NCBI GenBank assembly: GCA_021324685.1
Contig: JAJPIQ010000032.1
Coordinates: 66,878-130,877, forward strand
Length of the DNA stretch: 64,000 bases
Source of the DNA: Bacteroidota bacterium
GTDB taxonomy: Bacteria > Bacteroidota > Ignavibacteria > Palsa-1295
Reading direction: 5' to 3'
Made by a program: the position numbers and the translations under genes. A model generated the notes under the pieces. That model saw only the letters and a program-made list of their open reading frames with translations. It had not been told where the DNA came from and did not search any database. Positions 1,655 to 30,683 of the stretch are shown piece after piece. Numbering within the stretch: the first letter of the stretch is position 1; each line of letters opens with the position of its first letter.

Positions 1655-1707
1655 AACCCTGCCGTGAGACGGTCACACTACGAGAGTTCGAATCTCTCGC
1701 CGGGTTC
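1655..1707 (+). ncRNA. tRNA-like minihelix 1 (acceptor stem + T-arm)
   Basis: A T-arm is plain: GAGAG-TTCGAAT-CTCTC at 1682-1698, extendable by C1681-G1699. It is closed by AACCCTG (1655-1661) against CCGGGTT (1700-1706) with a single T/C mismatch. Between them is only one short hairpin, CCGT-gag-ACGG (1662-1672). There is no anticodon arm, so this is not an ordinary tRNA. Acceptor plus T stem total about 13 base pairs. It lies in the 101-base gap between two genes. Whether it is transcribed separately or processed is not known. Confidence 0.5.
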
Positions 1708-1736
1708 TTATTTCTATTCCCATTAACCGGAGGGAC

Positions 1737-1742
1737 AAACGA
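1737..1742 (+). promoter_or_regulatory. Variant of the element's AAACGAC start motif
   Basis: AAACGA runs directly into the ATG at 1742, replacing the final C of the motif seen at other rightward genes of the element. Here a good Shine-Dalgarno (GGAGGG, 1729-1734) is also present, unlike most other motif sites. Confidence 0.3.
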
Positions 1743-2260
1743 TGCAACTACCGAGATTAAAGGCGTCCGACATGTATCTTTATGAGGAGCAGGACGCAAC
1801 TCATGAGATAGCACAGACATTCCGCTATCTTGCGGAGCCTCAAGAAATCGCGAAGGAGCGCGCCTGCGCTATCGCTCAGGCCGTGAACCGTCACGATAAC
1901 CTGATCCGCGCAGTCACTTGTGTGCTGAACTGTATCGAAGGGCACGAAGAAATCAAGCACCCATTCGAAGACTACGAACCGGAGTCGCTCAGACAGTTAC
2001 AGGACATGGTTCGCGATATTCGGGCAGGGGCAGACGACTTGGAGGATATGAGCGGGAACGTTTCCCAGGCCTCACGAACGAACGATAACAAGCGAACGAT
2101 CCGGGAACTAACGGAAGCCTTGGAGGCGGCGGTTCAGCGGCTCGTTAGTTTAGATAGACAGCTACTCGCGGAGCTTGGAATTAAATTCGAGAACGATTTA
2201 GGAGAGATGATTCGCGGACGCGCCGCACTCGCCAAAGCGAAAGGAGAGCAACATGCTTGA
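1742..2260 (+). CDS. Hypothetical helical phage protein
   Basis: The 172-residue protein is predicted largely helical and highly charged; heptad-like leucines in the second half (LTEALEAAVQRLVSLDRQLL) suggest a coiled coil. No family is recognised. GGAGGG 8 bases before the ATG is a strong ribosome-binding site. It follows tRNA-like structure 1 and overlaps the next gene by 8 bases. Confidence 0.65.
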   Translation: MQLPRLKASDMYLYEEQDATHEIAQTFRYLAEPQEIAKERACAIAQAVNRHDNLIRAVTCVLNCIEGHEEIKHPFEDYEPESLRQLQDMVRDIRAGADDLEDMSGNVSQASRTNDNKRTIRELTEALEAAVQRLVSLDRQLLAELGIKFENDLGEMIRGRAALAKAKGEQHA

Positions 2261-2594
2261 CACAACTCGCATCATATCCATCGACCCGGAGAAACGCAAG
2301 CCGTGTGAGGCGTGCTCCGGCACGGGCTGGCTGTTCGCGAGTACGTCGTTTAAGATCGAACGATGCGATGCGTGCGAACAATACACGAACGACGCCTACG
2401 GTGCATTAGCGTTCGCCGAGGACGTATATATCGAAAGCAAAGGCGAGGTTACCGTTCGCATTTCGGCACAGCTTCAGCGCGGCGAAGCGAGTAGCTGGTG
2501 GTTTTTCGCTAATCCGAAATACGTCTCGGGATTCGTTCTCGCGGTAGCAAAACTGTTCCCGGACTACAATCCCTTATCGGACGAATTCCGCTAA
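2253..2594 (+). CDS. Small zinc-ribbon-like protein
   Basis: The 113-residue protein has an N-terminal CEACSGTGW (DnaJ-type CxxCxGxG knuckle) followed by CDACEQ, a probable four-cysteine zinc site within the first 40 residues. The rest is unassigned. GGAG lies close before the ATG, and the start overlaps the upstream stop by 8 bases. Its TAA stop supplies the first two bases of tRNA-like structure 2. A DNA- or RNA-binding role is possible but not shown. Confidence 0.62.
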   Translation: MLDTTRIISIDPEKRKPCEACSGTGWLFASTSFKIERCDACEQYTNDAYGALAFAEDVYIESKGEVTVRISAQLQRGEASSWWFFANPKYVSGFVLAVAKLFPDYNPLSDEFR

Positions 2595-2637
2595 CCCCGT
2601 TTGGAACATGCGCCGGTTCGATTCCGGCGCGGGGTTC
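2593..2637 (+). ncRNA. tRNA-like minihelix 2 (perfect acceptor stem + T-arm)
   Basis: AACCCCG (2593-2599) pairs perfectly with CGGGGTT (2630-2636). Next to it the T-arm CGCCGG-TTCGATT-CCGGCG (2611-2629) has a canonical seven-base T loop. Only 11 unpaired bases (2600-2610) stand where the D and anticodon arms would be. This is the acceptor/T-arm minihelix known to be a minimal RNase P substrate. It fills the 63-base space between two genes; 11 bases after it begins the CCTAAACGAC motif and then an ATG. Confidence 0.6.
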
Positions 2638-2647
2638 TATTTACTAT

Positions 2648-2657
2648 CCTAAACGAC
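2648..2657 (+). promoter_or_regulatory. CCTAAACGAC start motif
   Basis: The motif abuts the ATG at 2658 with no spacer. No Shine-Dalgarno is present. It lies 11 bases after tRNA-like structure 2. Confidence 0.55.
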
Positions 2658-2996
2658 ATGAAACTTACGGAACGAGAAACTGCAACCGTGCTGGCGGCCT
2701 TGCGCTACTGGCAGGAAGACTTCGGCATTGCCGGTGGCGCGCTTCGAATGCCGCTCCACTTCAACGACTGCGATCCGCTCACGTCCAAGGAGATCGACGA
2801 CTTGTGTGAGCGCATTAATGTCGTCGAGGGTGATGACGCCGAGGGTATGGAGCGATTCGTACGAGAAATTGCGGACGACGAAACGCGTTGCACCTGCGCG
2901 GACGAGAGTTACTTCGGGGAAGACCATACCTCGAACTGCGTATTCGCTAATGCCCACGAACTCATTTACGGATATAGACCGGAGGGGAAACCATGA
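2658..2996 (+). CDS. Small phage protein of the 'AALRYWQ' type
   Basis: The protein is 112 residues when started at the ATG directly after the AAACGAC motif; an upstream start would run into the tRNA-like structure and is disfavoured. The N terminus ETATVLAALRYWQ resembles a short segment common in phage and bacterial hypothetical proteins of unknown role. The C-terminal half has CTCADES...CVF, a possible metal site. It overlaps the next gene by 4 bases (ATGA). Confidence 0.62.
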   Translation: MKLTERETATVLAALRYWQEDFGIAGGALRMPLHFNDCDPLTSKEIDDLCERINVVEGDDAEGMERFVREIADDETRCTCADESYFGEDHTSNCVFANAHELIYGYRPEGKP

Positions 2997-3262
2997 CCCG
3001 AACAGAACTCTTACGCCGCTTTCCCGAACTGGGAACCGACGAGCCGCTGAGCGGCGCAGACGTTGTTGACCGGCTCTCCGCGTGGTATAACGAACTGACA
3101 AACGACGATGGCGAGGCCGACTTCGGCTTCGTTCCGTCCCCGGCGCTCGCCGATGCGTGGGAGCGATACCAAGCGGGCCAAGCCGTCTCTCAGTACGAGC
3201 TTCGCCGATTAGACGAGGAACGCGCTTTGTATTACGAGCGAAAGGAGTATGAAGATGACTAA
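2993..3262 (+). CDS. Small hypothetical protein
   Basis: The 89-residue, strongly acidic protein has no recognised domain. Its ATGA start/stop overlap with the upstream gene and the GGAGGGG before the ATG support translation. Confidence 0.6.
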   Translation: MTRTELLRRFPELGTDEPLSGADVVDRLSAWYNELTNDDGEADFGFVPSPALADAWERYQAGQAVSQYELRRLDEERALYYERKEYEDD

Positions 3263-3662
3263 GAGGATCATTGTACGCGAGATCGAGGAAAACGAAGAAT
3301 ACGAGGTTTCCCAGCGTGTGGAAAGGTATCGGTTCCAATACGACTTTGAGTGTCTTGGACGTTCAACGTGGATCGTATGGGGATGGGATGAAGGCGCTGG
3401 CGATTATACGGACTTCCTCGACACCATTGACGCCGAATACGGCCACATTGAGGACGCCGTGCGCGAATTTTTCAAACTCAACGTGTATGGCGTTTATAAA
3501 CAGTTCCGTCGCGGGCGCGGCTATGAGAAGCCCGCGTTCACGGTGCAGGCCGGCAACTACGAGGAGGCATACGAGCAAGCCCTCGCGCATTTAGGCTACA
3601 AAGACCTCGTTGGCGGTGCAATGGTGGGGGATGTAGAAATCGAAATCCAAAAGGAAGGATGA
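3255..3662 (+). CDS. Hypothetical acidic protein
   Basis: The ATG at 3255 is preferred over the one at 3249 because AGGAG ends seven bases before it, and because it repeats the 8-base overlap used elsewhere in the operon. The 135-residue product is rich in Glu, Tyr and Trp, with aromatic strand-like segments. No family is recognised. Confidence 0.6.
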   Translation: MTKRIIVREIEENEEYEVSQRVERYRFQYDFECLGRSTWIVWGWDEGAGDYTDFLDTIDAEYGHIEDAVREFFKLNVYGVYKQFRRGRGYEKPAFTVQAGNYEEAYEQALAHLGYKDLVGGAMVGDVEIEIQKEG

Positions 3663-3666
3663 GAAG

Positions 3667-3990
3667 ATGCCTAAATACACCGTACATATCTATGCGGTCG
3701 CAAGGGTTCCCGTTGAGGTCGAGGCCGAGTCGATGGAGGGGGCCATTAAGAAGGCCGAAGAAAAGACGAACCTCTACGATGTTCTGGATAGCGAGAAGGC
3801 GTCGTTTGCAGAGGAAGTAACGGGCTATCTCGTCGATGTCGAAGGCGACGAGGGGTGCGAAAACTCCCGCTACTTTAATACGGACGACCTTACCTCGGTT
3901 TCCTTCCGCTTTCTGGGTGGCGAGGGTTCGGCCCCGCTTGCGTTCGCCAACGAAGGCGACGGCGAAAACGAAAGATCGTGGGAATCTTAA
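3667..3990 (+). CDS. Small hypothetical protein, DpnD/PcfM-like beginning
   Basis: The 107-residue protein starts with a short beta-alpha pattern (YTVHIYAVARVPVEVEAESMEGAIKKAEE) also seen in small phage and plasmid proteins of the DpnD/PcfM type; this link is weak. It ends in an acidic tail. It lies 4 bases after the upstream gene and is followed by tRNA-like structure 3. Confidence 0.6.
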   Translation: MPKYTVHIYAVARVPVEVEAESMEGAIKKAEEKTNLYDVLDSEKASFAEEVTGYLVDVEGDEGCENSRYFNTDDLTSVSFRFLGGEGSAPLAFANEGDGENERSWES

Positions 3991-3998
3991 ATCCCACC

Positions 3999-4070
3999 GG
4001 GAGCGACAGGTTGGTGTCGGTCATGCCGCTAAGCGGGGCCGTGAATGGGGTTCGACTCCCCTCGCTTCCA
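3999..4070 (+). ncRNA. tRNA-like structure 3 (72 nt)
   Basis: GGGAGCG (3999-4005) pairs with CGCTTCC (4063-4069) over seven pairs with one G-T wobble, leaving A4070 as discriminator. The T-arm is TGGGG-TTCGACT-CCCCT (4046-4062) with one T-T mismatch. The length suits a tRNA, but the 40-base middle does not give normal D and anticodon arms; it folds instead into a hairpin with stem CCGC-taa-GCGG. No CCA is encoded. It could be a decayed tRNA or a processing signal. AAACGAC follows at once (4072-4078). Confidence 0.5.
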
Positions 4071-4078
4071 CAAACGAC
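4068..4078 (+). promoter_or_regulatory. AAACGAC motif after tRNA-like 3
   Basis: CCACAAACGAC overlaps the 3' end of tRNA-like structure 3. There is no start codon next to it. A second copy lies at 4121-4127, just before the ATG at 4129, with a hairpin between the two. Confidence 0.4.
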
Positions 4079-4083
4079 AAACA

Positions 4084-4116: not shown

Positions 4117-4127
4117 CCAAAAACGAC
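4117..4127 (+). promoter_or_regulatory. AAACGAC start motif
   Basis: CCAAAAACGAC ends one base before the ATG at 4129. No Shine-Dalgarno is present. Confidence 0.5.
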
Positions 4128-4128
4128 T

Positions 4129-4494
4129 ATGGAGAACAAACCACACGGCGCTCCTCACGCGAGGAGCGTCACGGAATTAGTCCTCATGGCAAAACGTGAG
4201 GACGCGACCGAGCTGGTGCGTCTGCGCCGCCGGTTACTACGCAACGCCAAAGCCCGGCTCCTACGCTGCAACGAGGATTTGGCAATCTTACGCTCGCGAT
4301 TTCACCCCGGCGACCTCGTCCACTTCCAACCGGACACGGAAGAGGAATGCCTGGGCGGACGCTACATCAAGATCGACATAGTGCTTCCGACCGACACCGG
4401 ATACCCTCGCTACGTTGGCACCGACTATCAAACAGGTGACGAACTAACGATGTCGTGGCGGGAGGCCGAGACGGCGGAGCTTTTAGACGAGTAA
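4129..4494 (+). CDS. Hypothetical basic-helical protein
   Basis: The ATG at 4129 is chosen because the AAACGAC motif ends one base before it; an upstream in-frame start at 4045 would lie inside the tRNA-like structure. The 121-residue product has an Arg/Leu-rich helix (VRLRRRLLRNAKARLLR) followed by a compact strand-rich domain (FHPGDLVHFQ), reminiscent of small beta-barrel folds but not assignable. Confidence 0.6.
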   Translation: MENKPHGAPHARSVTELVLMAKREDATELVRLRRRLLRNAKARLLRCNEDLAILRSRFHPGDLVHFQPDTEEECLGGRYIKIDIVLPTDTGYPRYVGTDYQTGDELTMSWREAETAELLDE

Positions 4495-4503
4495 CTTTTT
4501 AAA

Positions 4504-4513
4504 CCCAAACGAC
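4504..4513 (+). promoter_or_regulatory. AAACGAC start motif
   Basis: CCCAAACGAC ends three bases before the ATG at 4517. There is no purine-rich Shine-Dalgarno. Confidence 0.5.
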
Positions 4514-4516
4514 AAT

Positions 4517-5619: not shown

Positions 5620-8600
5620 TCAATGCTCGATCGTAAACTGCACGGCTTTATGTTGACCCTGCGTTTGAAGATCGGCATAATAAATACCGCTTGGAAGTTT
5701 GGAGCAATCGAGTTGGAGGCAGAGGCCCAGTTCAGCCTCGGGAGTGGCATTGTACAGCGTGGCGATTTGCGTTCCCATTTCGTTAACGACATCGACTGTT
5801 ACCTGAATCTGGGCAGGCAAGTCCTCAACGCACACTTTCACGGTTCCTTTGACCGGATTCGGATGCACCGTCACGACCAGGTCCTGCTGCTGCGGGGAGC
5901 CTAATGCGGTCGGTGAGGCCTTTTTATAACCCGCCCCTCCGGAAGTATCGGTAGCCTCCGGAAACGAAATCCCGGTCGAGTACAACTCCTCCTGGACAAG
6001 CTGGCCTTGCGTGGCACTGTCTTTAGTCGCTATGACGGTCACGTAGGCGGTCCCCGATGGCGTCGGAACAAGGGGTGCATAAATATGGTAGCCCTGACCG
6101 GTAATTGTGGTATCCCCCGGATCGAGCCCCGGACAACTATAGTTACCGCTACCCGGATTTCTGCCATAAATGACCGCCGAATCGATCACCTGAGTGATTT
6201 CCCCCGTAGCAGAATCCTTGACTACCATTTTGTAAGAAAAATAGTTGGATGGACTCTCCAGCACGAGCGAAAGCTGCGTCGTATCGACAACGAGTACTCG
6301 GTCCATTTCGAGCGTATCCCCCGATGAGACCGCAAAATAATTCGTTCGAACGGTATCTTGCGTCAGTGGCCACGACACTTGCGTAATTCCGTTCTCCGAA
6401 TCGTCAATGGCATATTCCTGAAAGGTTCCAAGAGGCTGGTGTTGCCAAACTGGATTTATCCAATTCCCTGTGGGATTTGGAGGTGGCTGAATGACAGACC
6501 CTCCGCCGGTCAGATGAAGATAAATCGGTACAGCGCATTGTTCTGCGACCGACAACGGCATTACCTTCAATTCTTTTATCAGTTCCGAAGGCGCCTGCAT
6601 TTCAGCTGGAGTTCCCGGCGACGTAACGACCTGTGCAGCGTATAGGCCGTTCTCATCGGCAACCGTGCCTCGGTAAGTCAACACGCCAAGGTCGGGAGGC
6701 ACATCGCACTCATAGGGCAGCGATACGTTCCCGAACTGGGCATAGTCTTTAAGCTTGGTCATCCCATTCCATACGGGGGAAACTCCTGGCGATGAGGTCT
6801 TACATCGGCTCAAGAATTCCTGGTGGACAAATGTGTCCTGATAAATTTCTTCTTTTATTACGGAAGCAGAACCATTGCAAAGAATGTCCTCATATCTCAA
6901 CTGAGGTTGCGGAACGTTGACGTTATTTTTTCCGTCACTGGCGAATGGCTGAAACGAAGTGAGATCGCCCCACACGTTCATCGGATAATACCATCCGAGC
7001 ATTTCCCGAAGAATAGACCTCGTTGCTTGTCCGGGAACCGGAACTTCCCAGGTAATGCCCGGCACTGCAAAATTGGCAGAATTATTCGGTTCGACGGCGA
7101 TCATCGGGTGGATGTTTTTACAAGCACCAAACGAAACCTGCGTCGTTAAAAACTTATTGTAGGTTGTCGTTGCCAGTGGATGATCGACATACGTGAAATC
7201 GATGTCGCTCGACCCGTCCGGATGATCGGCTTCCCAGGCAAAATAGAAGCGTTCGTAAGAATACCCGACATAGCCCGGCGGCTCGTGCGGTGGATCGAGT
7301 TTCGTTTGATCGTACGAAGCGATCGAACACATTCGAAATTGGTCCGTCGCTTTTGAGGGTAGTAGAACGGTATTAACCCCACCGCTATCTAAAACCTCGA
7401 GTGCCGTGACGGTCGTTGCCCCGCTGGTATATGCTACCAGATATCCCTCGCAAGCCGGTGTAATCACCGGAGTCACAAGATTGAAGGAGTTTTCCCCGAC
7501 ATTCCCGGTAATGTCATGCACTCTCGGCGTAAGATATGGCAGTGCCGTCGCAAGGGTAGCGGTCGTCCATGTCGCATAATTCGAAGATGGATCGCTTTTG
7601 GCGAACATCACCTTTCGGGTTCCCTTCGTTTGATCGTTTGTAAAATCATCGACAGAGAACACGATCGCAACTTCGCCAGGTCTTGCATCGGGATTGTGAT
7701 CGAAAGCATATTGCGAGACAGAGGCTATGGAAGGATTGTGGCCGTCCTGGGTATGATCGGTGCCAGGATCGTACACGACCTGCGGCGCATATAAGCCCGT
7801 CCCGGAAATTCCGATCGGGTCCTGCGCTTCATTCTGCGTGCGGCAAAACATGATCTTCCCGTTCTGCTCCCACACCACCCCATAATCGGCAGTCGAGCCT
7901 TTGGGACCAATCTTGGCGATCCGGTGACCGTTATTATATGCCATCCCCGCATAGGGAGTGCGGCCAAGTTCGAGCGAAGTGGCCGGTGCGATCCTCAATA
8001 AAGTGCCTTCGCCCGGGTCGAGTTCTAATTCGTAGTCCGTCGGACTGGAAGCCTTATCAACGAAGGTCTTTCCCGTGCGAAGATTTGTGATCGTGTAATA
8101 CTGAACCCCGCTGCTGGACCAATTTACAGTATTGCCCTGAAAATCCGTCCAATTCGGCTTGAGTACCAAATCGACTATTCTCGCGTCGATAGCTCCCAAA
8201 TACTCGATACTATTATTTGGAGCTGTCGGGTCAAACTGTTGGACGGACGCAATCGAACCATTGGGATTATAATTATAGTTGATCGGCCATGTCCTTCGGT
8301 TTGCGATGGTTACATAAATTGCGTCCTGATCGACAGGGTCGCCGGCATCATTCGGATCGTGGAATATACCAACATTATAGTAGAGTGGGCTTGTGGTGCC
8401 GTTATCAAAATTCCCGCTGTGGTGTGTAAAAGGAATAGCCGTTGCATTTGGTGCGGCAAATGGAGTCTGCTGATCGACCTGAAAACTTGTGTCGATCGTT
8501 AGCGGGAACATCGGCTCGCCAGATGGATGCGGACCGTCCTTGCTATAGATATAAGCGTTCCCATTCGAATTTAGAACCTGACCTGAAGCCCAGGTTTGAT

Positions 8601-11600
8601 CCGAGGTCAGCGCGGGATGATTCCCGGAGTTAATCTGGGCTTCTGCACTTACAAAATCCGCATAATTGAATGCCGTCACCCACTGCAAAGTTTTCAGTTC
8701 TTGCGCGATCGGCGCAATATCCGCCGTGGAACGCTTTACTCCATCCGATCGATCTTTCATACCGTAGTAGGTTGGAATATGAGTAATCGGAGCAACGATC
8801 CAACCCCCTGGATAAAATAGCGGCGCATGATAGTACCAGGGGCTTGCATATGCATGAACGCTATGTCCAGGAAAATCACCATCGAGAGTCCGATCGAAGG
8901 CGAGCCAATCAGAAACACCTGGCAACCCGTCTTGCGTAGCGGTATTAGCGGTGACAAGCTGCGAACTGTCGTTGATTGTTGTTGCGAACCAGGGACCCGC
9001 CGCACTCCCATAATTGGTAGTGAGATTGACGTCCGGCACTTTAAACGACGCATCAGGCCAGTAGGTCGTACCGGTATTAACACCGGCATAATTTTGGACA
9101 GCTTCTATATACTCATCAATCATATTGACGCCATTGGTATTTGTTGCCGTAAGCTGGGTTCCAGCATCGATTAAGATTGTACCAGTGGGAGAATTGCCGT
9201 TATGATTAGGATAAACCTTAAGATCGCTCAAGGCTGGCACCCAACATTTACTTCCAGCCTGATTCATTACATAACGGTCAGGGAAAGTGGTCGAAGGATC
9301 ATGGTTTGCTGTCGTAGCAAAAGGAATTAATCGGTCGGGAGGCAAAAAATTCCACCCTGGAAATTCACTAAAAAGAGGTGAACTATTTGTTGGTTCGCCG
9401 TGTGAAATATCTGAGAACCCGCTATTAATATTATCTTCGAAGTTGTTGCCGCATAGCCCTACGTTTCCGCCTGCGTCGGAACCCATTGGATTGTAGATTA
9501 TTCCTTTCGCTCCCCAGGCAATGCCATCCCAGGTCTCTTCCCTGATTTCCCATGGAGTTACCGGTTGATCTTCAAATCTAAAGTAATCAGCTAAAGATGG
9601 CATGCTCGGCTGCCAATAAAAAGGACCTGTCCCGCAAGAGCAACCAGGACTGGAATTCGCCGGAGGAGTCCCGGCGGCCGGGGGTATAACATGCTTCGGA
9701 TCTGGGGGGAAGCAGTAATAATAATAAGAACTACAGCATCCGGACGTATATTTTACCCACGAGCCGACGGAATATTGTTTTGAACTATCATAGAGAGGGA
9801 TTGGTGATGGTACAAAACTGCTTAGTTGAGAATAGGATAGGCTGGATGGAATTGAACTATCTGATTTAAGATCGTTATAGAGCGTTGCTCTTAGGCCATT
9901 CTGTCCGTTTTCGATGAGCGGCCAGGCATTATACGGTTGCGCCCCAGCAAATACCGAAGGATAACTAAAATAGGGAACCCATTCTGAAGCGGGTTTATCC
10001 TGTGGATAACACGTTTCAGCCGTCTGCTTGTTTGCAGCGGTTACGCCACGGGATGCAATCTGAAACCGAGCCGTATAGGTAGCGTAATCGTCACTATCGC
10101 TTGTGCCGCCTAACGTTGTAGCCCCGTAGGTGCCACTTGGATTCGCTGTCGTCACCGAATTGGCTCCATTCCATCCAGTGATACTCAAGCCAAGTTCCAA
10201 AAAACCCGTATGATTTTTTAATTCGGCTGGAATAGCATCCCCGGCGAACAGCATTCCGGCGAAGGGATTGCCGTTAGCATCATCACAACAGTTAAAGTAC
10301 GCCGGGTTCCCATTCGCGCCAGTAGGAGTGTTGGAATATGTTGGACCTCCGGTAAAGTAAAAAGGTCTTGGTTTAAAGTCATGATCGGGTCGCGGATATT
10401 GCCCGAACTGAATGCTCTCATTTTGAAATGCAGGGGGCGGAGCGTTTGTCCTTGATTGATCCTCGTAAATGGGACGCCACAAAGCCAAATTACTGCCAAG
10501 GTTGCTGCCGGCTCCTGTAATAATGGTAAAAAAGTCTTTTTGGACCCCGCCGTTTTGTGGCTTCTTCGAAAATGCGCGGAACTGTTCATTGATATATGCA
10601 AAACAGCGGAAGAACGGCCAGTCGCCCTCGTTACCGATGTTCAGGCCCAACGCGCCGTTCCATAAGTTTGCCGCATTCGCGTTCGAGTAATAGGCACTAA
10701 AGCTACTAAGCAAGCCATGTGGCAAATTTAAGTTAAATTGGGCAAGATCGAGGTTCCCGCCTGAGCCATCGGGACCCGTATGAGCATTATCGAAGTATCC
10801 GCGATATAAATCGTCCGCCCAGTTCGAACGGATACGAACTCCGCGTACGTAAATGCCGTCGCTTGCCGCCGCTTTTACAAGATTAAACTTTATCGGGCAA
10901 GCCCCGCTATTAAGATTGTTAGTGTAGTTACTTAATAGCGTTCCGCCGCTAAGTTGTACCTTGATTCGGATTACGGCATATGGTTGAGGTTTATAATTAG
11001 ATAATGGGAATGGCGGACTCAGGCTTCTATTTGGAAATCTCAAGTAATTTAAGTTTTCGGTCGGATGCAATGCAAAATCTCGAGCAGTGTCGGGCACTGG
11101 ATTGCTCGCATCGACACCGATATAGTCCAGATAGCTCTGGAAATGCGTTGGGTCCGCGTGCGTGTCGGTATAATTAATGGGAATGATGCTCGTCCCGGCT
11201 ACAGGGGCGTTTCCGGTCGTAGGTGTCAACCAATGCGCTCCATCATCCGCTGAGTAGGTGATCGTCGCCGAGCCGCCAGTCGTTTGAAGGTTGCATAAAA
11301 GATTATAGACAGTTGTCGGAGAGGATGGATAATCAGTCGGATCGAGCCGGTAAATGAAGTCGATATAAAAGGTTGTTGCCGGTGTCGGATTTTCAGGCGA
11401 GCCAACCACCCCAATATAGGTTCCTGGATCGAAAATTTCGGTCCCATCAGTATGTTGATTGAAATCCCATAAATAATAAACGTTTGGATCATTTGGGCTT
11501 AATGGATCGTCGGAGGGATTTTGAATTCCAATATTCGGTCCGGGAGGGTCGATATAATATTCGTTATTGCCTTTTAAAGGATCTCCTGGCGCAGCAGTGG

Positions 11601-11994
11601 CCCAAAATTTAAGAGTGCTTATTCCTGTTGCCGAGGAGGCCAAATCCCACGCTGCGTCGCCATGCTCATTCGAGACGAGATCGCAATCGAGTTCGGCAAA
11701 GAGCGGATTATAGCCACCCGTTGGGGGATTGGCATTCGTTCCCTGCGGAAAAAAATAGTTCAAGTCGACGGAAGGATCAACCGATATACCATAAATGCCG
11801 GGGGATAGGTTATAGAACATATTGAGCCCGAATTTCGAAAGTTCTGAACCGGCGACGCTCCCATTTAAACAACAGCTATTCAACCCGCCGAGCGGAAACA
11901 CCGTGTCGGCCGGGGCCGCTGGCTGTGTTGTCTGAGCATGAAGTGAAACGTTAAGCGCAAGGACGGCGATGATTGAAAGATAAAAGACTTTCAT
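5620..11994 (-). CDS. Giant secreted protein with T9SS sorting domain (2124 aa)
   Basis: A signal peptide is clear (MKVFYLSIIAVLALNVSLHA, cleaved before QTTQ). The last 85 residues form a type A T9SS C-terminal sorting domain: VVTVHPNPVKGTVKV opens it and LPSGIYYADLQTQG precedes the final strand. The protein should therefore be exported across both membranes and anchored or released at the surface. The middle (roughly residues 750-1150) has patches such as REETWDGIAWGAKGIIYN and STADIAPIAQELKTLQWV that recall the TIM-barrel end of some glycoside hydrolases. Residues about 1350-1550 look like bladed repeats (GVVWEQNGKIMFCRTQ). Both readings are tentative. Base composition is more AT-rich than the phage genes around it, and it lies between blocks of element genes, so it looks like cargo. 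Confidence 0.85.
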   Translation of the reverse strand: MKVFYLSIIAVLALNVSLHAQTTQPAAPADTVFPLGGLNSCCLNGSVAGSELSKFGLNMFYNLSPGIYGISVDPSVDLNYFFPQGTNANPPTGGYNPLFAELDCDLVSNEHGDAAWDLASSATGISTLKFWATAAPGDPLKGNNEYYIDPPGPNIGIQNPSDDPLSPNDPNVYYLWDFNQHTDGTEIFDPGTYIGVVGSPENPTPATTFYIDFIYRLDPTDYPSSPTTVYNLLCNLQTTGGSATITYSADDGAHWLTPTTGNAPVAGTSIIPINYTDTHADPTHFQSYLDYIGVDASNPVPDTARDFALHPTENLNYLRFPNRSLSPPFPLSNYKPQPYAVIRIKVQLSGGTLLSNYTNNLNSGACPIKFNLVKAAASDGIYVRGVRIRSNWADDLYRGYFDNAHTGPDGSGGNLDLAQFNLNLPHGLLSSFSAYYSNANAANLWNGALGLNIGNEGDWPFFRCFAYINEQFRAFSKKPQNGGVQKDFFTIITGAGSNLGSNLALWRPIYEDQSRTNAPPPAFQNESIQFGQYPRPDHDFKPRPFYFTGGPTYSNTPTGANGNPAYFNCCDDANGNPFAGMLFAGDAIPAELKNHTGFLELGLSITGWNGANSVTTANPSGTYGATTLGGTSDSDDYATYTARFQIASRGVTAANKQTAETCYPQDKPASEWVPYFSYPSVFAGAQPYNAWPLIENGQNGLRATLYNDLKSDSSIPSSLSYSQLSSFVPSPIPLYDSSKQYSVGSWVKYTSGCCSSYYYYCFPPDPKHVIPPAAGTPPANSSPGCSCGTGPFYWQPSMPSLADYFRFEDQPVTPWEIREETWDGIAWGAKGIIYNPMGSDAGGNVGLCGNNFEDNINSGFSDISHGEPTNSSPLFSEFPGWNFLPPDRLIPFATTANHDPSTTFPDRYVMNQAGSKCWVPALSDLKVYPNHNGNSPTGTILIDAGTQLTATNTNGVNMIDEYIEAVQNYAGVNTGTTYWPDASFKVPDVNLTTNYGSAAGPWFATTINDSSQLVTANTATQDGLPGVSDWLAFDRTLDGDFPGHSVHAYASPWYYHAPLFYPGGWIVAPITHIPTYYGMKDRSDGVKRSTADIAPIAQELKTLQWVTAFNYADFVSAEAQINSGNHPALTSDQTWASGQVLNSNGNAYIYSKDGPHPSGEPMFPLTIDTSFQVDQQTPFAAPNATAIPFTHHSGNFDNGTTSPLYYNVGIFHDPNDAGDPVDQDAIYVTIANRRTWPINYNYNPNGSIASVQQFDPTAPNNSIEYLGAIDARIVDLVLKPNWTDFQGNTVNWSSSGVQYYTITNLRTGKTFVDKASSPTDYELELDPGEGTLLRIAPATSLELGRTPYAGMAYNNGHRIAKIGPKGSTADYGVVWEQNGKIMFCRTQNEAQDPIGISGTGLYAPQVVYDPGTDHTQDGHNPSIASVSQYAFDHNPDARPGEVAIVFSVDDFTNDQTKGTRKVMFAKSDPSSNYATWTTATLATALPYLTPRVHDITGNVGENSFNLVTPVITPACEGYLVAYTSGATTVTALEVLDSGGVNTVLLPSKATDQFRMCSIASYDQTKLDPPHEPPGYVGYSYERFYFAWEADHPDGSSDIDFTYVDHPLATTTYNKFLTTQVSFGACKNIHPMIAVEPNNSANFAVPGITWEVPVPGQATRSILREMLGWYYPMNVWGDLTSFQPFASDGKNNVNVPQPQLRYEDILCNGSASVIKEEIYQDTFVHQEFLSRCKTSSPGVSPVWNGMTKLKDYAQFGNVSLPYECDVPPDLGVLTYRGTVADENGLYAAQVVTSPGTPAEMQAPSELIKELKVMPLSVAEQCAVPIYLHLTGGGSVIQPPPNPTGNWINPVWQHQPLGTFQEYAIDDSENGITQVSWPLTQDTVRTNYFAVSSGDTLEMDRVLVVDTTQLSLVLESPSNYFSYKMVVKDSATGEITQVIDSAVIYGRNPGSGNYSCPGLDPGDTTITGQGYHIYAPLVPTPSGTAYVTVIATKDSATQGQLVQEELYSTGISFPEATDTSGGAGYKKASPTALGSPQQQDLVVTVHPNPVKGTVKVCVEDLPAQIQVTVDVVNEMGTQIATLYNATPEAELGLCLQLDCSKLPSGIYYADLQTQGQHKAVQFTIEH

Positions 11995-14719: not shown

Positions 14720-14729
14720 CCTAAACGAC
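14720..14729 (+). promoter_or_regulatory. CCTAAACGAC start motif
   Basis: The motif ends six bases before the ATG pair at 14736/14739. A small hairpin (CGGAA-ccg-TTCCG) precedes it. Confidence 0.5.
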
Positions 14730-14735
14730 AAATAC

Positions 14736-16480: not shown

Positions 16481-16490
16481 CCTAAACGAC
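16481..16490 (+). promoter_or_regulatory. CCTAAACGAC motif without adjacent gene
   Basis: A perfect motif copy preceded by two small hairpins (CACAG..CTGTG; AGGAT-gtc-ATCCT). No start codon follows closely; instead it precedes the inverted repeat 16497-16574. Confidence 0.45.
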
Positions 16491-16496
16491 AGGACA

Positions 16497-27654: not shown

Positions 27655-27664
27655 CCTAAACGAC
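27655..27664 (+). promoter_or_regulatory. CCTAAACGAC motif
   Basis: The motif is 31 bases before the ATG at 27696, the largest spacing seen, after a T-run (27641-27649). Confidence 0.4.
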
Positions 27665-27695
27665 TCTATAACTCGCAGTACCCAAAGCTTCTGCC

Positions 27696-27899
27696 ATGAT
27701 AGATTTGCCAAAAACTGACATCCGCGCCTTGCTTGCTCAGGGTGCGGTTGTGTGGGGTCCCGACGGGACGCCTACGCCGCCTTTCCTCCTGGAGCGACTG
27801 GAGGAAAGCCTTCACTACTTTGAGCTTTTTCAACCAATCCTAAACGACAATGGAAAAAAAGAAAAGGAGGACGTCCACCGGAATCAGGCCACTCGGTAA
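27696..27899 (+). CDS. Possible small protein before the integrase
   Basis: A 67-residue frame (MIDLPKTDIRALLAQGAVVW...) whose last 50 bases overlap the integrase start in another frame. The first 45 residues look protein-like and are soluble. It has a motif copy upstream but not adjacent. Uncertain. Confidence 0.4.
   Translation: MIDLPKTDIRALLAQGAVVWGPDGTPTPPFLLERLEESLHYFELFQPILNDNGKKEKEDVHRNQATR
27839..27848 (+). promoter_or_regulatory. CCTAAACGAC start motif of the integrase
   Basis: The motif ends one base before the integrase ATG (27850). A CCTCC-GGAGG hairpin lies about 40 bases upstream. No Shine-Dalgarno. Confidence 0.5.
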
Positions 27900-29437: not shown

Positions 29438-29447
29438 CCAAAACGAC
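29438..29447 (+). promoter_or_regulatory. AAACGAC start motif
   Basis: CCAAAACGAC ends one base before the ATG at 29449, just after the integrase stop. Confidence 0.5.
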
Positions 29448-29448
29448 A

Positions 29449-30330
29449 ATGAATAGACAAGATACCCTGTCCAGGGTCGTCGAAGAACTACGAACCGAAC
29501 TCGGAGAAGTCCGAGCGGAACTTAAAGCGATCGAAGTACGCGGGCCGGCCTTACGCAGCAGAGAAGAGCGTATCGCCCAGGCGCTCGATACGTTAGTAGG
29601 GGAAGGTTCCACGGGCGATCCGGCGTGGCTGAAAGTGCCGCGGATTACGAACGAGGGCTTGGAGCGCTGTCACGCCCCCGCGCCCAGGAAAGACAAAACT
29701 AAGGCGTCGCCTCGCGCCAAGATGCAGTTGACCGACGGCCACGTCTTGGAGGCTGCAATCTTTATTCAATCGAAGGGACGCCCGCAGCGGTCCGCCGAAA
29801 TCTTTCAACACCTGGTGCATGGCGGCTTCCTTACGGTGCCCGAAGGTTCTGAAATGCCGACCAAGGCATTCGGCATCCGGTTGGGTAGTATCGACCAGAA
29901 CCTTATCGTGTACGATCGGACGAACAAGACCTGGTCGCTGAAAGACCCGTCGCCAAAAGAAAAGCTGCGGCGTCATAAGTCGAATCCGGAGACGCGCATT
30001 CTTCCGTCGTCACCGATCGCCCGCAAGGACCATCTGTTCGTGAGGATCGTTAAGCGTATTCTCGACCGCACCGGAACCGCAATGTCGTCGCAGTCGATCT
30101 ACGCCGAGCTTCAGGAGGAACGTGACTTTCGACTGATTCCACAACCCGTCGAAACGTACATTGATTTTATCGGAACTCTTGCGACGTATAAAGACTTTTT
30201 TGCGCTCGATGAAACAACGCAGCTCTTTTACTCCGTCGCCGATGATCCGGTTCACAACCGTCGAGGCATCGCGGCGGATGGAATTGCGCCCGGCCTCTAC
30301 ACGAATGGTCGAGCCTACGCCGCGCGTTGA
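29449..30330 (+). CDS. Coiled-coil protein with two winged-helix (HARE-like) domains
   Basis: The 293-residue protein has an N-terminal coiled coil (about 5-50: VVEELRTELGEVRAELKAIE). A first winged helix follows (about 95-165: DGHVLEAAIFIQSKGRPQRS, AEIFQHLVHGGFLT, ending YDRTNKTWSLK). A second lies at about 195-270 (FVRIVKRILDRTGTAMSSQS, IYAELQEERDF, FFALDETTQLFYSV). The layout resembles HARE-HTH modules. The first is similar in pattern to the insertion in the integrase, so the protein may assist recombination or its directionality. It is the last element gene before tRNA-Asn. Confidence 0.6.
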   Translation: MNRQDTLSRVVEELRTELGEVRAELKAIEVRGPALRSREERIAQALDTLVGEGSTGDPAWLKVPRITNEGLERCHAPAPRKDKTKASPRAKMQLTDGHVLEAAIFIQSKGRPQRSAEIFQHLVHGGFLTVPEGSEMPTKAFGIRLGSIDQNLIVYDRTNKTWSLKDPSPKEKLRRHKSNPETRILPSSPIARKDHLFVRIVKRILDRTGTAMSSQSIYAELQEERDFRLIPQPVETYIDFIGTLATYKDFFALDETTQLFYSVADDPVHNRRGIAADGIAPGLYTNGRAYAAR

Positions 30331-30440: not shown

Positions 30441-30446
30441 CTATAT

Positions 30447-30520
30447 TCCTGAGTAGCTCAGTTGGTTAGAGCATCTGACTGTTAATCAGAGGGTCGTAGG
30501 TTCAAGTCCTACCTCAGGAG
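30447..30520 (+). tRNA. tRNA-Asn (anticodon GTT)
   Basis: A complete cloverleaf: acceptor TCCTGAG/CTCAGGA, D-arm GCTC..GAGC, anticodon arm CTGACTGTTAATCAG with GTT at 30481-30483, T-arm GTAGG-TTCAAGT-CCTAC, discriminator G30520. CCA is not encoded. It marks the right edge of the mobile element, which lies on its 5' side. No partial duplicate of the tRNA is visible elsewhere in the window. Confidence 0.95.
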
Positions 30521-30683
30521 CTTCTCCCGTAAAAGCTCTATAGTGTGCTGTGGCACCTCACTCGTTTGCTGCGGTAAGTCACTCATTTGTGACCTGATTT
30601 ATCAGGGTTTGTATGGTTACCATTTGAGGGTTGGCGAGTCTTCTGAATGATGCCGTACATGGCATTGCAAACTCTCGAATTAC

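Follow-up and report, generated by a model that had tools for sequence, protein, structure and literature searches.

Non-decoding tRNA-like elements in the early operon of a Bacteroidota prophage as candidate RNase P processing signals

Why would a phage keep the ends of transfer RNAs (tRNAs), acceptor stem and T-arm, between the protein genes of its early operon? The question is raised by a 64,000-nucleotide (nt) stretch of DNA from a Bacteroidota bacterium (Ignavibacteria; Palsa-1295), here called the window (assembly GCA_021324685.1, contig JAJPIQ010000032.1, positions 66,878 to 130,877). In the 3.47-Mb bacterial genome (G000) the window is C4:66878-130877, so its first base is C4:66878, and its left part belongs to a prophage. 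The original prediction placed three T-arm/acceptor structures near the window start and proposed that ribonuclease P (RNase P) and RNase Z cut the polycistronic mRNA there. All three structures are present, in the canonical tRNA register at 1656-1707, 2594-2637 and 3999-4071, and they belong to a larger set.

Seven tRNA-like elements between early genes

A scan for a TTCRANY T-loop with a T-stem and an acceptor stem in the canonical tRNA register revealed at least seven tRNA-like elements (T1-T7), all on the plus strand of the prophage early region between C4:58.2 and 71.0 kb. Three are the structures known from the window (T5, T6 and T7, in the order given above). The other four are new and lie upstream of it: T1 (L003:11230-11332), T2 (L003:11421-11504), T3 (L003:11790-11843) and T4 (L003:18617-18702). 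A 5-base-pair (bp) T-stem, a TTCRANY loop, a 7-bp acceptor stem and an encoded C74 are common to 7 out of 7 elements.

T6 is a perfect minihelix, as had been claimed, with a linker of just 11 nt. Its acceptor (ACCCCGT/GCGGGGT) pairs at 7/7 positions and its T-arm (GCCGG-TTCGATT-CCGGC) at 5/5, followed by U73 and C74, and an ATG at 2658 starts 20 nt downstream. T5, with a 19-nt linker and again U73 and C74, has a complete T-stem (GAGAG-TTCGAAT-CTCTC, 5/5) and an acceptor (ACCCTGC/GCCGGGT) paired at 6/7 positions. It lies 15 nt past the stop of the open reading frame at 1431-1640 and 34 nt ahead of ATG 1742. An additional A(-1):U73 pair in T5 and T6 accounts for the stem of about 13 bp predicted for these two, which in T5 includes one U:C mismatch. 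T7 combines a full acceptor (GGGAGCG/CGCTTCC, 7/7) with a T-stem paired at 4/5 positions (TGGGG-TTCGACT-CCCCT), A73, C74 and a 40-nt linker that is not tRNA-like. The predicted T-arms closed by matching 7-base acceptors are confirmed at all three places; pairing is complete in T6, and one pair is missing from the acceptor of T5 and one from the T-stem of T7.

Linkers are 40-53 nt long in T2, T4 and T7. T1 is a cloverleaf with a D-arm and an encoded CCA, in which a 32-nt hairpin lacking U33 takes the place of the anticodon loop; this element (L003:11230-11332) can be viewed as a natural 'tRNA scaffold' carrying the hairpin as its anticodon loop. A probable degenerate eighth copy was read by eye at L003:19125-19172. 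Elsewhere in the same operon, a 67-nt gap at L003:15513-15579 holds a long hairpin without a T-loop.

Each element lies between plus-strand genes, on the coding strand. The gaps holding T5, T6 and T7 measure 101, 63 and 141 nt among genes that mostly overlap, in line with the original prediction. For all seven elements the gaps range from 63 to 782 nt, most other junctions of the early operon overlap or are shorter than 25 nt, and most of its large gaps contain an element.

A chance origin was ruled out by shuffles and by scans of other sequence. Markov shuffles of the 33.7-kb phage region yielded 0.19 matches at a score of at least 28 and 0.04 at 30 or above; the region itself holds the seven elements and one canonical phage tRNA. 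Elsewhere in the host genome, 238 kb of sequence gave only two weak non-tRNA matches at the level of the elements (scores 28-29), and in about 376 kb from 42 viral contigs besides this prophage, canonical tRNAs alone reached a score of 29 or more. A further set of about 313 kb, made up of five virus records and a bacterial contig that has a distant portal gene, gave a sole strong non-tRNA match, with a score of 30; the weaker ones scored 28 or less, one of them being the T-arm of a transfer-messenger RNA (tmRNA).

This strong match is a perfect minihelix with a 13-nt linker and an encoded CCA in a distant phage that carries a related glutamine amidotransferase (G406, IMGVR_UViG_3300046786_000774). 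It lies at L088:17692-17738, about 15 nt before a start codon (ATG 17754) and after some 380 nt without an evident gene. The minihelix stands as an isolated second example, and a search for its own relatives found none.

Annotation tools recognize the window elements poorly. ARAGORN called T7 as tRNA-Leu(AAG) and did not call T5 or T6, and the Rfam tRNA model called none of the three at its gathering score. We rejected T7 as a tmRNA, since its RF00023 score of 28.5 bits is below the 47-bit cut-off and an ordinary host tRNA scores 32.1. Decoding tRNAs were rejected as well: a convincing anticodon is found in none of the seven elements, the linkers of T2-T7 have no D/anticodon similarity above shuffles, and T1 has a D-arm but a 32-nt anticodon loop.

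Stems, C74 and linkers

The seven elements have seven different sequences, and yet 48/49 acceptor and 34/35 T-stem positions are paired (82/84 in total). When partners are exchanged between elements, on average 3.2/7 acceptor and 3.3/5 T-stem pairs remain. Because these counts are partly selected by the element scan itself, the scan was repeated with the T-arm alone and no acceptor required. Each of the seven strong plus-strand T-arms found in this way is accompanied by an acceptor that pairs and by a C following N73, and half-decayed intermediates were absent.

C74 is encoded in 7/7 elements and in 48/48 tRNA genes called in the host genome, a list that includes T7 (47/47 without it). The full CCA is encoded in T1 alone, and host tRNA genes likewise carry C74 mostly without CCA.

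The T-arms match particular host RNAs exactly: that of T5 is identical to tRNA-Ser(GGA) over 18/18 nt, that of T7 to the T-arm of tmRNA over 17/17 and that of T1 to tRNA-Gly(GCC) over 19/19, and the T2 T-arm is an exact match to tRNA-Gly(CCC). The elements therefore descend from tRNAs or tmRNA. The linkers behave otherwise. Compared with host D/anticodon regions, those of T2-T7 show no more resemblance than is seen in their own shuffles (the T1 linker scores above its shuffles), and no common sequence was found among linkers. That stems and C74 are kept while the middles of T2-T7 have diverged suggests selection on a processing module.

In an alignment of eight sequences (T1-T7 and the G406 minihelix), 97.9% of the cells are paired, and the covariation score is 1.16 vs 0.31 in shuffles. 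Folding, which had been proposed as a check, speaks for the structures in part: imposing the two stems costs 0-2.9 kcal/mol above the free minimum, but unconstrained folding by itself does not settle the matter (z from -2.9 to +0.5). A minihelix covariance model run on 13 genomes of the host order recovered T6 (42.5 bits; the model was built from T6) and otherwise only the ends of tRNAs and tmRNAs; since it scores T1-T5 and T7 weakly, its silence elsewhere is limited evidence.

RNase P processing and its rivals

Model hairpins made of an acceptor and a T-stem-loop are minimal substrates cut by the RNA of E. coli RNase P, which contacts N73-C74 of its substrate (PMC11143913). The coaxial 7-bp acceptor and 5-bp T-stem with T-loop that characterize tRNA-like substrates of this enzyme are found here, with 82/84 pairs formed, and the host genome encodes a type A RNase P RNA (C70:7957-8398; 172.8 bits). 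Acceptor, T-stem-loop and C74 are retained and the middle has diverged. The minimal-substrate form attributed to these elements by the original prediction is supported, and the part that has been kept is, judging from sequence, the RNase P recognition module.

Our tentative but preferred interpretation is that the elements are tRNA-derived processing or stability signals on the polycistronic early mRNA, which RNase P would process or cap by way of them. We favour it because the parts kept are those that RNase P reads, because the RNase P RNA is present and because the elements occupy gaps. The host tRNA end-processing machinery, RNase P above all, would read the elements. Cleavage by RNase P on the 5′ side of every acceptor stem would divide the early mRNA into segments. 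Each downstream segment would then begin with the element as a structured 5′ end bearing a monophosphate, and its stability and expression would be expected to change. Maturation of the 3′ side, perhaps on only a fraction of the transcripts, would follow the host's own tRNA route, with exonuclease trimming to C74 and CCA addition rather than RNase Z.

The involvement of RNase Z is the part of the original mechanism that had to be abandoned. Neither TIGR02651 nor NF000801 detected the enzyme in 13 genomes of the host order (best TIGR02651 score 34 bits vs a cut-off of 293, no NF000801 match; controls positive in 13-14 of 14). The best matches are metallo-beta-lactamase proteins of 254-291 amino acids; that of this genome, the one protein checked, is a 254-aa metallo-hydrolase nearest to the PRK02113 and GPMC-type families. 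In G000 and 12 other genomes of its order, the two models thus detected no RNase Z, although most tRNA genes lack an encoded CCA.

Besides the RNase Z result, several other points weigh against RNase P processing. T6 shares its first base with the upstream stop codon, of which it is the third base (TAA 2592-2594), and therefore a cut by RNase P would strip that mRNA of its stop unless cutting and translation are coupled. The CCA that RNase P prefers is present in T1 alone (most host tRNA genes also lack it), T5 and T6 start with A and not G and have a paired -1 position, and the T7 T-arm does not form in the unconstrained minimum fold. T1 and T2 stand in tandem within one gap, and position in a gap is itself weak evidence because any small RNA gene would sit in one. 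Additionally, protein searches with the portal, terminase, amidoligase and glutamine amidotransferase found no relative with the same genes in which conservation could be seen; they returned very distant phages or, from IMG/VR, this prophage again. The latter record, IMGVR_UViG_3300005529_000043, shows no difference in the compared stretches and is evidently this prophage, and the next portal relative is 26% identical.

A rival explanation is that of free small RNAs. The same processing would release stable tRNA-like RNAs with a CCA tail and no decoding role, which would act in trans as decoys for tRNA-cutting defence nucleases, as sponges for tRNA-binding proteins or, in the case of T1, as a hairpin on a tRNA scaffold. 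The complete cloverleaf of T1, with its D-arm, encoded CCA and hairpin in place of an anticodon loop, points this way, as do the T1-T2 tandem with no gene between and the lack of a convincing anticodon in any element. However, minihelices of 44-54 nt offer an anticodon nuclease nothing to see, the elements are scattered singly in operon gaps rather than gathered in an RNA cluster, and their linkers share no sequence. We consider this explanation unlikely.

Functionless remnants of phage tRNA genes, their middles lost by deletion and decay, would account for the identity or near-identity of T-arms with those of particular host RNAs (tRNA-Ser(GGA), tmRNA, tRNA-Gly(GCC)). A single deletion suffices to make a minihelix, and the probable eighth copy at L003:19125-19172 looks decayed. 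Against decay, pairing and C74 are retained throughout, yet the linkers, even those of 40-53 nt in T2, T4 and T7, have lost all similarity, and no intermediates turned up among T-arms found without the acceptor requirement. Six of the elements thus seem to be neither working tRNAs nor simply decaying ones, and we regard the remnant explanation as rather improbable.

It is highly improbable that the elements are uncut structures that protect or insulate the mRNA, as 3′ exonuclease blocks or as 5′ structures setting translation of the next gene: the 13-bp and 12-bp stacks with T-loops, the gap positions and the overlap of T6 with a stop codon, which suits coupling to terminating ribosomes, fit this idea, but it leaves unexplained why the T-loop consensus and C74 were retained rather than a mere stem.

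Returning to RNase P processing, a more specific version is possible, although we advance it with considerable caution. Captured tRNA genes may have been turned into non-decoding minihelices through which the phage has its early mRNA cut into units by host RNase P, in a host lineage without detected RNase Z, as a bacterial-virus counterpart of mitochondrial tRNA punctuation.

Start motif, prophage setting and known systems

The original prediction also linked the window elements to an AAACGA(C) motif. AAACGA(C/T) indeed begins 29, 13 and 0 nt after C74 of T5, T6 and T7, but a specific link is not supported, as most copies of the motif lack a tRNA-like structure; T1-T3 have no motif downstream. 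All the copies described here are on the plus strand. AAACGAT at 1737-1743 overlaps ATG 1742, and CCTAAACGACAT at 2648-2659 precedes and overlaps ATG 2658. CACAAACGACAA at 4069-4080 overlaps the 3′ end of T7 and has no adjacent ATG, and CAAAAACGACTA at 4118-4129, before ATG 4129, has no structure of its own. No tRNA-like element accompanies CCCAAACGACAA at 4504-4515 (before ATG 4517), CCTAAACGACAA at 14720-14731 (before ATG 14736) and 27839-27850 (before the integrase ATG 27850), or CCAAAACGACAA at 29438-29449 (before ATG 29449).

The motif thus also precedes these four genes, and it is a phage gene-start signal of its own. With at most one mismatch, CCTAAACGACAA has 10 copies in the prophage, all on the plus strand, and zero in 78.6 kb of flanking host sequence; with weaker forms included, an ATG lies a few bases at most from about 10 copies. 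It is a phage-wide gene-start motif, either for transcription or for translation, and would mark the start of the next gene cluster as a signal separate from the elements. Further copies of this type occur at 16481-16492 and 27655-27666 and upstream of the window. A host start signal was dropped as a candidate, since the attachment (att) sites assign window positions 1-30485 to the prophage. In viral contigs the motif gave chance-like single matches and no phage family.

The prophage, of about 72.2 kb (C4:25107-97362), is integrated in tRNA-Asn. A 42-bp piece of tRNA-Asn(GTT), from its 5′ part, is exactly repeated at C4:25107-25148 and at window 30444-30485 (plus strand; C4 97321), and these copies bound the prophage, the latter being its right attachment core. 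The attachment sites thus fall in the 5′ half of tRNA-Asn(GTT) (window 30444-30521 and C4:25107-25148), and the prophage covers window 1-30485. An integrase gene (PF00589; 27850-29433, plus strand) adjoins the right repeat. Terminase, portal and major head protein genes are on the minus strand, and the plus-strand early region that holds T1-T7 encodes exonuclease, HD, DnaA-C, amidoligase and glutamine amidotransferase proteins.

In the window, the last two are the C-terminal part of a phage amidoligase (PF12224; 43-549, plus strand) and a class II glutamine amidotransferase-like protein (PF13230; 569-1438, plus strand); the pair (43-1438) is also adjacent in Podoviridae sp. ctgrD200 and other distant phages. 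Also inside the prophage bounds, positions 5620-11994 encode a protein of 2124 aa that carries a C-terminal sorting domain for type IX secretion (PF18962). Among the viral contigs, IMGVR_UViG_3300033067_001302 carries a tmRNA gene (G407:C1:80253-80606) with the predicted tag ARDTA.

The elements are of a known kind, tRNA-like and RNase P-type; their number, stripped-down form and setting are unusual. We found no description of such phage elements in the open-access literature. As in mitochondrial tRNA punctuation, tRNA-shaped elements stand between same-strand protein genes, and processing at both ends is proposed to free the mRNAs; here, however, the elements are non-decoding and phage-borne, cleavage is predicted, and 3′ processing cannot use RNase Z. 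In MALAT1, a tRNA-like element (mascRNA) lies in a long transcript whose end is defined by an RNase P cut; it is eukaryotic and requires RNase Z. That element is single, in contrast to seven phage elements in a host without detected RNase Z.

Phage RNAs named as substrates of RNase P include M3 and C4 (PMC11143913). The M3 RNA of phi80 and the C4 antisense RNA of P1/P7 are phage-coded non-tRNA substrates of the bacterial enzyme, as is proposed for the present elements; each is a single RNA, whereas here seven T-loop-bearing minihelices are described along one operon. Partial tRNAs left by integrating elements are associated with prophages and are one-sided and located at att sites (PMC9897764). 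The phage elements have both acceptor strands, and we rejected att-site fragments as their source, since the att core is tRNA-Asn at C4:25107 and 97321 and the elements lie elsewhere and match other tRNAs. RNase P also cleaves bacterial operon mRNAs (Alifano 1994; Li and Altman 2003, both as cited in PMC11143913). There, as proposed here, it acts between the cistrons of a polycistronic mRNA. The phage elements differ in being clearly tRNA-derived; the bacterial operon sites are not known to have genuine T-loops or acceptor stems that match.

If the elements are cut, this phage operon would be divided by stripped-down tRNA mimics, which would form a natural, selection-made set of minimal RNase P substrates useful for studying the requirements of the enzyme in vivo. 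It would also mean that phages can retain 'tRNA genes' for the processing signals in them rather than for decoding, a possibility that phage annotation overlooks, most of these elements being missed by tRNA finders.

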